A DNA stretch of 64,000 nucleotides from Vicinamibacterales bacterium. GTDB lineage: Bacteria > Acidobacteriota > Vicinamibacteria > Vicinamibacterales > 2-12-FULL-66-21. Position numbers and translations under genes: made by a program. Under the pieces are notes generated by a model, which was given only the letters and a program-made list of their open reading frames with translations, was not told where the DNA came from and made no database searches. Positions within the stretch are counted from its first letter, which is position 1. Every line of letters begins with the position of its first letter. The DNA lies in assembly GCA_035699745.1 (NCBI GenBank), contig DASSPH010000069.1, forward strand, positions 62,001 through 126,000, read 5' to 3'. Shown piece after piece: positions 46,412-50,205 of the stretch.

Positions 46412-47350
46412 ATGATGCGCGCGTGCTCGTGGTCGCTGCTGCTGTGGCTCGGCGCGGTTGCCTCGCTCGTCGGTCAGGCGCCGGCCAGAACGCCGCCGGC
46501 CGCGACCGTCGTCCTCGAGGTGGTCGCGCACGATCGACGCGGCATGCCGGTGATGGATCTGAAGCCGGGCGAGGTGGAGGTGTGGATCGGGCATTTCCGC
46601 GTGCCGATCGAGACCTTCACGGTGGTCCAGCCGGGGGCGGACGAGCGCGCCGGACGGCTGTTCATCCTGATTCTCGACGACGTCTCGGTGCCGCTGCCGG
46701 TGATGCCGCGGGTGAAGGAAGCCGCGCACCACTTCGTCGCCGGCATGCGTCCCGGCGATCAGATGGCGGTGGTGATGCTCAGCGATCCCGCGCTCGAGAT
46801 GACGGGCGACGTGGCGAAGCTGCGGAGCGCGATCGATCGCTACACCGTCCGCGCGACCGGGCTGATGCGCGGCGACCAGCTGGGCGCGCAGGTGCTCAAC
46901 ACGATCGGTGGCGCGGCCCAGTCGCTGATCGAGGCGGGCGGCGGGCGCAAGACGATCGTCGGCATCGGGTCGGGCTGGCTGCTCGACCGGCCGATTCCGC
47001 CGCCGGGCAGCGGCTTCGATCTGCTGCAGGAATGGATCGGCGCGATGCGGGCGATGTCGCGGACCGGCAGCGTGTTCTACGCGATCGATCCCGGCGGGCT
47101 GGACATGCGGCGGCGCGCCGATGGCGGCGACACCGGCTTCGCGCGCGAGACCGGCGGGCTGGGATTCCTCGCGACGAACGATCTCAAGGGCGCGGCCGAC
47201 CGCATCCTGCGGGAGTCGGCCAGCTACTACTCGCTGCGCGTCGCGAGCCCGCCGGTGGGCGGCAGCGACGGCCTGCGCGAGGTGGAGCTGAAGGTGACCC
47301 GCCGCGACGTCACCGTCCGCGCCCGCCGCGCCGTCCACGCCGTCCAGTGA
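46412..47350 (+). CDS. VWFA-related acidobacterial-domain protein (short form)
   Basis: Exported protein of 312 aa with signal peptide (SWSLLLWLGAVASLVGQA). The VWFA-related domain covers most of it: VVLEVVAHDRRGMPVMDL (about 31-48), FILILDDVSVPLP (the first strand with its Asp pair), KTIVGIGSGWLL and YYSLRVASPP near the end. It lacks the TPR tail of the larger relative at 23293-26061. Start ATG 46412 (a second ATG follows directly). The gene is followed by a palindromic terminator at 47372. Confidence 0.82.
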   Translation: MMRACSWSLLLWLGAVASLVGQAPARTPPAATVVLEVVAHDRRGMPVMDLKPGEVEVWIGHFRVPIETFTVVQPGADERAGRLFILILDDVSVPLPVMPRVKEAAHHFVAGMRPGDQMAVVMLSDPALEMTGDVAKLRSAIDRYTVRATGLMRGDQLGAQVLNTIGGAAQSLIEAGGGRKTIVGIGSGWLLDRPIPPPGSGFDLLQEWIGAMRAMSRTGSVFYAIDPGGLDMRRRADGGDTGFARETGGLGFLATNDLKGAADRILRESASYYSLRVASPPVGGSDGLREVELKVTRRDVTVRARRAVHAVQ

Positions 47351-47371
47351 CGCTGTCTCCGCCCGTCGCCG

Positions 47372-47395
47372 AAAAATGGGGACAGTCCCCTTTTT
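47372..47395 (+). terminator. Rho-independent terminator with GGGGACAGTCCCC core
   Basis: GGGGAC-A-GTCCCC (47378-47390) followed by TTTTT, 20 bases after the VWFA gene stop, on the plus strand. The same palindrome recurs in opposite orientation at 47495-47517. Confidence 0.75.
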
Positions 47396-47494
47396 CGGGG
47401 GCGGCAATGTTGGCGGGCGGTGGGTGCGCGAGAGGCGCCTGGACTGAGCGAATCTCCGCCTCCGCGGCCGCTGAAGCGTCAACCGGGGTTGGCG

Positions 47495-47517
47495 GAAAAA
47501 AGGGGACTGTCCCCTTT
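47495..47517 (-). terminator. Rho-independent terminator, same palindrome, opposite orientation
   Basis: On the minus strand, GGGGAC-A-GTCCCC is followed by TTTTTT, starting at the stop codon (TAA) of the AhpD-like gene. Core at 47502-47514. It pairs with the copy at 47372-47395 as a convergent terminator pair flanking about 100 bp that hold no gene. Confidence 0.75.
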
Positions 47518-48109
47518 AGCGGGTGACGGCTTTGGGGACGCCGTCGGGATCCATCATCGGCGGCGGATGGATGTCGAAGGCGTCCGCCAGGCGCACGAAC
47601 ATCGCGAACAGCGCGCCGATGTACACCGCCTCGGCGATCTGCGGATCCGTCCACCCGGCGTCCCGCAGGCCCTGGACCTGCCCGTCGGTGATCTTGTACG
47701 CGTGTCTGGTCAGCGTCTCGATGAACTGCAGCAGGAGACGCTCCGCCGGCGTCACCGGCGCACGATCGAGGTCGCCGTCACGCAGCGCTTTCGCGGTTTC
47801 GCTGAACTGCTCGCCCTGCAACTGCAGGAACCATGCGTGGCTGCTCAGTCAATAGTGGCACTTGTTCAGCGCCGCGACGTACGACGCGATCATCTCGTGC
47901 TGCGCCCGGCTCAGCGCGCCGTCCGAGAAGTGCACGCGCGAGGCGTCCATGATCGCCGACAGCAAATCCGGCCGGTGCCCCATCGTCATCAGGATGTGCG
48001 GCACGAACTCGCGCTTGATGCCGCTGGCCGCGCCCGACCGCGCCAGCTCGAATACTCTGGCCGTCTCCCCCGTCGCGTCGGCTTCTTCGACCCACTTGAT
48101 ACGCGGCAT
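47516..48109 (-). CDS. AhpD-like (carboxymuconolactone decarboxylase fold) peroxidase-related protein, predicted selenoprotein
   Basis: Predicted redox enzyme of 197 aa in which TGA at 47849-47851 (residue 87) would be selenocysteine. Read through, the frame is continuous and both halves align with one AhpD-core fold: N-part MPRIKWVEEADATGETARVF, redox site NKCHY-U-LSSHAWF, and C-part PAERLLLQFIETLTRH and WTDPQIAEAVYIGALFAMF. The AhpD relay residues are all in place: Glu72, Cys84, Sec87 (CxxU) and His91, that is E-x11-C-x2-U-x3-H. A 5-bp hairpin with loop AGTT sits 25 bases after the TGA. ATG 48109 has GGAGG six bases upstream. It is the last gene of a three-gene operon. The alternative, a nonsense mutation splitting the gene, is less likely because everything else is intact. 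Confidence 0.82.
47815..47851 (-). promoter_or_regulatory. Candidate bacterial SECIS: UGA plus downstream hairpin
   Basis: On the minus strand the TGA (47849-47851) is followed after 20 bases by CCTGC-AGTT-GCAGG (47815-47828). It is a 5-bp stem with a 4-nt apical loop that has G in its second position, and the loop starts 26 bases after the TGA. This fits the published bacterial SECIS layout (loop 16-37 bases from UGA, G among the first two loop bases). The stem is short, so this is a candidate. Confidence 0.6.
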
Positions 48110-48121
48110 CCGTTCCTCCAG

Positions 48122-49906
48122 CTAGCGGACCGCAGCGGCAGCGATCTCGCGCGGACTCAGTTCAGCGGCGGTGATCCGGGCGCGCGGCATCAGAAACCCG
48201 CCGCGCCCGTCGTGAACGATGACTTCTCCCCGGAACATGCTGCCGGCGGTGCGCAGATCGCCGGCGCGGCGCAGCCCGGGAATGTAGAGGCGCTCGACGA
48301 ACGCCGCGTCGCTCGACGTGTTGAAGCCGTCGACGTCCACGATGGTGCGCGCGATCGGCGCCATCGCGCCGGCGAGCAGCGCGGGCAGCGCCGCCTCGCC
48401 GGCCGCGACCAGGGTGGCGCCCGGCGACCGACGCATGGCGGTGACGATGTCGAGCACGCGCTGGCTGGCGGCGGTTCGATTGTAGGTGTCGAAGTGGCGG
48501 ATCTTCGCCGCGGCGGCCTCGTCGAACGGCGTGAACGTCACCGGGCGCGCCTCGACGCCGCGGCTCCGCAACGCGGCCACCACCGCCGGGGACACATCGG
48601 CGACGACGGCGACGCGCCTGGACCGCCCGGCCGGTTCCGCGGGGCGGCGGAAATCACGTGTCGCCTCGTCCGCGTCCGCGCCAAATCCCAGCACGTGCCG
48701 CAGCGCGGAGCGCAGCTGCGCGTCGATCGACATCGCGCGGGGCGCGAGGGCGAGCTGCGCGGTTGCCGCCTCGATCCACTGCTCGACGATCCGGCCGGCG
48801 TTCAGCTCGTTCTCGGGGCGGGTGCGGCCGTAGAACACCAGCAGATCGGCGAGCGGATCGGGACTGAACGACTTCTCCGGGCGGGTGGCGCCGGCAGGCG
48901 CATTCTGGAGCCACCGCGCCATCCACGCGTACATCGCCTCGCGGCTGTCCTTGTTGTAGTTGTGCTCGGCTTCGAAGCGGACCGCGTGGACCTTCGATTC
49001 CGCGCCGAACAGCGCGTAGGCGCGCCGCATCGCGGGGAACTCGCGCTCGAGCGTCTCCTTCGTCCAGTCGCCGGTGGCCGAGACCATCAGCAGCGGACGC
49101 GGCGCAATCGTCGCGGCGATCTCGACGTTGTTCGTGTCGAGACGCAGGCCGGGCATGTTCTCGCACAGACACCCGCCCTGCATCTGCAGCGAGATCATGT
49201 TGACCGGCGCCGCCACCGCGACGCGGTCGTCCACCGCGCCGAGCAGAAACGTCTGCGTGCCGCCGCCGGATTCGCCGGTGACGCCGAATCCGTCGCGCCG
49301 CACGTAGGGCAGCGTCTCGAGAAAGTCGAGCGCACGGATCCCGTTCCACAGCTGCAGGCCGCCAAGCGAGAGACCCCACAGGCTCTCGCGCGGCCCGCCG
49401 AACGTGTGCGTCAGCTGACGGCTGTCGTTGTAGCCGATCATGTCGTGGGTGAACACGACGAACCCCTGCCGCGCGAGGCCGATCGCCCGCCCCGGACCCG
49501 AGTTGATCGCGGTGTGCTCGAGCCGCCCGTTGGTCCAGTGTCCATGCGGCGAGAGGACGGCCGGGAAGGGACCGGCGCCGACCGGCCGATACAGATTGCC
49601 GGTGACGAAGAAGCCGGGCAGGCTCTCGAAGTACACCCGCTCGACGATGTAGTCGGCGTGCCGCACGGCGCCGAACACGACAGGGTTCAGCGGCGTCCGC
49701 GCCGGCATCGGCAGCAGGCCCGCGGACGCGAGCACGTGCTCGCGGAGATATGTCGCGCGCGCCGCCCACGCCTCGCGCGACGCGAACGGCGGCGGATCGA
49801 ACCGGTCGTTCAGCGTTCGATACTGCGGGACGGCCTGCGGCGCCGCGGCAACGGTCGCCGCGAACACGATCGGCGCGATCGCCAGCCGCAGCGCTACCGC
49901 ACGCAT
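48122..49906 (-). CDS. Alpha/beta hydrolase (acetyl-xylan-esterase-like), exported
   Basis: Predicted secreted esterase or peptidase of 594 aa. ATG 49906 is chosen: GAGGA lies eight bases upstream, it starts a signal peptide (LRLAIAPIVFAATVAAAPQ), and it overlaps the upstream gene by 13 bp. Motifs: FFVTGNLYRPVGAGPFPAVL, the oxyanion-hole region SPHGHW, nucleophile elbow GVTGESGGGTQT (about 235), and a late AEHNYNKDS that may hold the catalytic His. The C-terminal 200 residues form an extra domain. It lies 12 bp before the AhpD-like gene. Substrate unknown. Confidence 0.83.
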   Translation of the reverse strand: MRAVALRLAIAPIVFAATVAAAPQAVPQYRTLNDRFDPPPFASREAWAARATYLREHVLASAGLLPMPARTPLNPVVFGAVRHADYIVERVYFESLPGFFVTGNLYRPVGAGPFPAVLSPHGHWTNGRLEHTAINSGPGRAIGLARQGFVVFTHDMIGYNDSRQLTHTFGGPRESLWGLSLGGLQLWNGIRALDFLETLPYVRRDGFGVTGESGGGTQTFLLGAVDDRVAVAAPVNMISLQMQGGCLCENMPGLRLDTNNVEIAATIAPRPLLMVSATGDWTKETLEREFPAMRRAYALFGAESKVHAVRFEAEHNYNKDSREAMYAWMARWLQNAPAGATRPEKSFSPDPLADLLVFYGRTRPENELNAGRIVEQWIEAATAQLALAPRAMSIDAQLRSALRHVLGFGADADEATRDFRRPAEPAGRSRRVAVVADVSPAVVAALRSRGVEARPVTFTPFDEAAAAKIRHFDTYNRTAASQRVLDIVTAMRRSPGATLVAAGEAALPALLAGAMAPIARTIVDVDGFNTSSDAAFVERLYIPGLRRAGDLRTAGSMFRGEVIVHDGRGGFLMPRARITAAELSPREIAAAAVR

Positions 49907-50205
49907 TCGTACCAGTCCTCGTGAAGCGAGAAGCCGCCGCAGCGGAGGCACGACGTCCACTTCCACTGGTGCGCGCAGCCCGGGCAGCGGCCCCTGGTGC
50001 TGAACGTATTCCACGTCGTCCCGCACCACTCGAACGGCGGCTCGGGCGTGCCTTCGGCGTAACAGCACCACCGCGAGGACGGGCCCGGCGTCCAGTCGCA
50101 GAGCGGACAGCGGATCCGCTCGGCCGCCTCGCCGTCATCGTCTTTCGGCGTGCTGAAGACCTTCTGTTCCCACAAGGGGGCTGGCCGCTTCAAGAGCGCA
50201 AGCAT
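49894..50205 (-). CDS. Small cysteine-rich protein with zinc-ribbon pairs
   Basis: Protein of 103 aa. Cysteine pairs: CPLC (33-36), then WCCY, WCGTTW, CPGC (about 74-77) and CLRCGG (about 86-91), with histidines between. This looks like two or three interleaved zinc ribbons, with conserved tryptophans (KWTSC and HEDWYE). No signal peptide, so cytoplasmic. It is the first gene of an operon with the hydrolase and the AhpD-like gene, and it is preceded by the terminator of the desaturase gene. The family is not one I can name. Confidence 0.72.
   Translation of the reverse strand: MLALLKRPAPLWEQKVFSTPKDDDGEAAERIRCPLCDWTPGPSSRWCCYAEGTPEPPFEWCGTTWNTFSTRGRCPGCAHQWKWTSCLRCGGFSLHEDWYECVR

Follow-up and report, generated by a model that had tools for sequence, protein, structure and literature searches.

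The window, the whole 64,000-nucleotide stretch of DNA that was analysed, almost certainly contains the gene for a functional AhpD-like, peroxidase-related selenoprotein (TIGR01926, Pfam CMD) with selenocysteine at an in-frame UGA, codon 87. The case rests on homology, on conservation of the TGA, on a family-wide SECIS comparison and on co-occurrence with selB, and together these support the initial annotation, which had read the gene as an AhpD-like CxxU selenoprotein. AhpD-like selenium enzymes have been known as a family since 2005, and this gene is a real further member of it, with nothing categorically new. The Sargasso Sea was the first source of the TIGR01926 CxxU family (PMC13188914, PMC1088965), with 27 sequences (PMC1088965); 299 plus 70 AhpD-like selenoproteins followed from the GOS data (PMC2398784), and a 2026 review lists TIGR01926 with CxxU in its table of prokaryotic selenoproteins (PMC13188914). 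The initial annotation was right that such proteins are in the literature, but calling them proposed understated a family that is tabulated in reviews and has an NCBIfam model.

Features of the selenoprotein locus in the window
Feature	Position	Strand	Details
AhpD-like (TIGR01926) selenoprotein gene (predicted)	47516..48109	-	197 residues, ATG (48109) to TAA (47518-47516), predicted Sec at codon 87
TGA codon 87, in frame, predicted to be read as selenocysteine	47849..47851	-	last position of C84-H85-Y86-U87
SECIS-like hairpin UCCUGC-AGUU-GCAGGG	47814..47829	-	loop 47820-47823
Shine-Dalgarno-like GGAGGA	48114..48119	-	sequence
Alpha/beta-hydrolase, probable signal peptide	48122..49906	-	glucuronyl-esterase-like, 26.6 bits, just below the 27-bit cut-off
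Cysteine-rich protein, 103 aa, no family match	49894..50205	-	overlaps the hydrolase start

The frame reads MPRIKWVEE...ALNKCHY-TGA-LSSHAWFLQ...AVTR-TAA, and the TGA is the sole interruption in its 197 codons. The single frame of 86 + 110 codons described in the initial annotation, which gave no strand, is thus present on the minus strand, and the strong ribosome site it mentioned precedes the start (CTGGAGGAACGG-ATG). Third-position GC is high on either side of the TGA (0.92 and 0.88). By itself the open frame says little, since a stop-free run of 110 codons has a chance of ~0.11 (about 1/9) at 70% GC. A gene caller without selenocysteine support would, as had been foreseen, list two frames here (48109-47849 and 47821-47516), and they could be taken for two genes, the first coding for an AhpD fragment of 86 residues and the second, downstream, beginning at an internal TTG. 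That division would split the catalytic CxxU site, and each relative with an uninterrupted frame is one protein of comparable length; we give it next to no probability.

The joined protein scores above the cut-offs of the NCBIfam model TIGR01926 'peroxidase-related enzyme' (89.5 bits; cut-off 81.8) and of Pfam CMD (44.9 bits; cut-off 23). It falls far below that of AhpD sensu stricto, TIGR00777 (18 bits; cut-off 192). The AhpD-related CFYUT selenoproteins (NF041238) share a related core and CxxU with it, but its score of 64 bits, where the cut-off is 175, puts it outside that family. By sequence, the best solved relatives are the AhpD-like structures 2prr, 3c1l, 6k40 and 2oyo, with 2prr at the top (3e-16). 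The AlphaFold model of the selenoprotein, at a pLDDT of 43, is poor, probably because its alignment had only four sequences.

The active site is recognizable in the sequence. The proton relay of Mycobacterium tuberculosis AhpD consists of Glu118, Cys130, His132, Cys133 and His137, and the site of PA0269 of Glu36, Cys48, Tyr50, Cys51 and His55 (PMC3141380). The spacing of E72, C84, Y86, residue 87 and H91 equals that of both, with Glu, CxxC (or CxxU) and His at offsets 0, 12, 15 and 19, and the E72-x11-C84-H-Y-[TGA87]-x3-H91 arrangement was found at every position where the initial annotation had placed it. When the sites are aligned, the TGA stands where the second cysteine of CxxC would be. 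With M. tuberculosis AhpD (1GU9) the window protein shares the E-x11-C-x2-C-x3-H spacing, but it has Tyr for His132 and, as predicted, Sec for Cys133; with PA0269 (2O4D) and the peroxidase-related 2PRR it shares the E/C/Y/C/H site including the Tyr, and differs in having a predicted Sec in place of their Cys.

The nearest orthologues, in one Acidobacteria MAG (G023) and two Chloroflexota MAGs, are 67-74% identical to the window protein. All three have the TGA at the same column (87) and are intact on both sides of it, the reverse of what the initial annotation had named as the sign of a pseudogene, stops and frameshifts elsewhere in close relatives. Over the four orthologues dN is 0.14-0.35 and dS 0.6-1.8, both before and after the TGA. 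Most matches in a wider set of 40 relatives contain a single in-frame TGA, at the same motif position in those that were read. The window gene shares with the Sargasso Sea and GOS AhpD-like proteins (TIGR01926 / COG2128) the family model, a CxxU motif in which Sec stands for the second cysteine, and an in-frame UGA followed by a SECIS (PMC1088965, PMC2398784, PMC13188914). It differs in that it forms a distinct branch with G023 and the two Chloroflexota MAGs, with the motif CHYULSSHxWFLQLQG (STH in one of them). In a maximum-likelihood tree, the window protein and its three orthologues are a clade (100/99), and next to this Sec clade stand six Cys proteins, all from genomes of the same phylum with no selB detected. 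Sec and Cys were exchanged at least four times in the tree sample.

Homologues with cysteine at position 87, which the initial annotation had suggested looking for, do exist: the nearest Cys forms have it in the aligned column and come from Acidobacteriota in which no selB was detected. At least one AhpD-like homologue with a TGA-interrupted frame was found in 86 of 396 genomes of the phylum, among the matches listed. The TGA form co-occurs with selB; among these same matches, and with same-genus genomes that are not independent of each other, selB was detected in 84 of the 86 genomes with the TGA form and in 5 of the 24 with uninterrupted forms only (Fisher p = 8e-15). The two genomes that have the TGA form but no detected selB are rated 72% and 75% complete.

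One genome without detected selB has tandem AhpD-like genes (L004, L021 and L027; G021:C125:2589-6009), and one copy reads RTRYC, having lost the first Cys of CxxC while keeping a Cys at the Sec position. L023 and L024 (G037 and G027) are AhpD-like proteins with two domains, of which the first has lost CxxC and the second retains CRYC.

The AGTT-loop hairpin that the initial annotation placed at SECIS distance is present and SECIS-like, and there is synonymous-site conservation around it. Counted from the first base of the UGA, the loop (AGUU in the window) begins 28 nt downstream in the window clade, against ~20 nt in many of the relatives that were read. Each locus was scored by its best hairpin with a loop 13-36 nt past the UGA and a G in the first two loop positions. 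Such a hairpin, directly downstream of the UGA, was found in 41 of 41 Sec loci, with a mean score of 17.6 versus 10.9 in synonymous-codon shuffles, while 14 Cys loci scored 9.9 versus 9.3 in theirs. Stem pair types differ at every position across the Sec loci and the arms are still complementary, but because hairpins were chosen for pairing, the shuffle comparison, not the pair counts, is the test. Stem and loop of the window hairpin are nearly invariant over the four orthologues, and the first 13 codons past the TGA have a codon identity of 0.85 at conserved residues, versus 0.52 elsewhere (p = 0.0008). Taken singly, the window hairpin is not significant, either against synonymous shuffles (p = 0.14) or in folding energy against dinucleotide shuffles (z = -1.5 or weaker). 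The SECIS support is at the family level only, from comparison.

These observations bear on the possibility that the gene is a pseudogene, a Cys-type AhpD broken by a nonsense change from TGC to TGA. A TGC or TGT cysteine codon is a single base away from TGA, and Cys forms do exist in the family. A broken gene is nevertheless very improbable given that orthologues from two phyla retain the TGA and show purifying selection before and after it, that the TGA form co-occurs with selB, and that the Sec loci have SECIS-like hairpins.

The host assembly (6.3 Mb in 110 contigs, with completeness rated at 100%) encodes the machinery for selenocysteine, and a check for selA, selB, selC and selD proposed in the initial annotation found all four. 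SelA (527 bits), SelB (352), SelD (347) and a tRNA-Sec with a UCA anticodon lie on four separate contigs; Rfam detected no tRNA at the selB locus, the tRNA-Sec being elsewhere. The selD gene is itself TGA-interrupted at its redox site, SACAGU (L045, G000:C71:25763-26695), this being the usual Sec of SelD. A peroxiredoxin-like protein (L083, G000:C30:59115-59504), whose redox site GGUTAEC has a TGA followed by a hairpin, is probably another selenoprotein encoded by the host. On a quick look, a second TGA-marked AhpC/TSA match (L086) was not readable as one.

The UGA in the window gene is in frame and open, as it would also be under ordinary readthrough or a reassignment of UGA, for example to Trp. 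Either is extremely unlikely: the host has SelB and a tRNA-Sec with UCA, UGA terminates other genes here, such as the neighbour 46412-47350, and the aligned residue in selB-lacking relatives is Cys, as expected for Sec.

The upstream hydrolase gene stops 12 nt before the selenoprotein ATG, and the two are likely co-transcribed. The operon suggested in the initial annotation is thus plausible by spacing, but the link is not conserved, with no conserved gene neighbourhood at the orthologue loci (L078, L079 and L081). The hydrolase and the cysteine-rich protein are uninformative on function, since they are not common to the orthologues. A pair of REP-like palindromic repeats (AAAGGGGACWGTCCCCTTT) is found at 47368-47399 and 47492-47523, between the gene at 46412-47350 and the selenoprotein gene, and the second repeat overlaps the selenoprotein TAA stop. 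The pattern has 51 matches in the genome (24 forward and 27 reverse, some places being counted on both strands), and its reversed control has none.

Comparison supports the decoding of the UGA and the identity of the site; the chemistry, substrate and reductant we infer. SelB and tRNA-Sec would decode UGA 87 as selenocysteine, with insertion directed by the hairpin just past it, within the coding region. The product would be an AhpD-type helical oxidoreductase in which Sec replaces the second CxxC cysteine (Cys133 of M. tuberculosis AhpD), and its proton-relay site would consist of E72, C84, Y86, U87 and H91. Oxidation of the selenol may come from a peroxide or from a disulfide partner, and C84 would resolve it as a selenenylsulfide. 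With Sec in place of Cys133, the protein should be more reactive towards peroxides or disulfides. Judged by its family, the protein is likely a thiol/selenol oxidoreductase or an AhpD-type peroxidase; H2O2 reduction by PA0269 is only weak (PMC3141380).

In another difference from M. tuberculosis AhpD, PF10417 was not found in the host genome. This C-terminal domain is typical of AhpC, so a role as a classical AhpC partner is unsupported; other AhpC/TSA-type proteins are present. A wider evolutionary reading is offered tentatively, as possible but somewhat doubtful: a distinct Sec AhpD-like clade, present in MAGs of both Acidobacteria and Chloroflexota, would probably have passed between the two phyla along with its SECIS. 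Its sister clade would use Cys, in Acidobacteriota without detected selB, and the Sec clade itself would work on its own, with no classical AhpC, as a selenoperoxidase or a disulfide reductase.

Several lines of evidence converge here on a selenoprotein that a gene caller unaware of Sec would split in two. AhpD-like Sec proteins are common in the phylum (86 of the 396 genomes, among the matches listed), and the Sec and Cys sister clades would allow a test of what Sec contributes in an AhpD-like fold.
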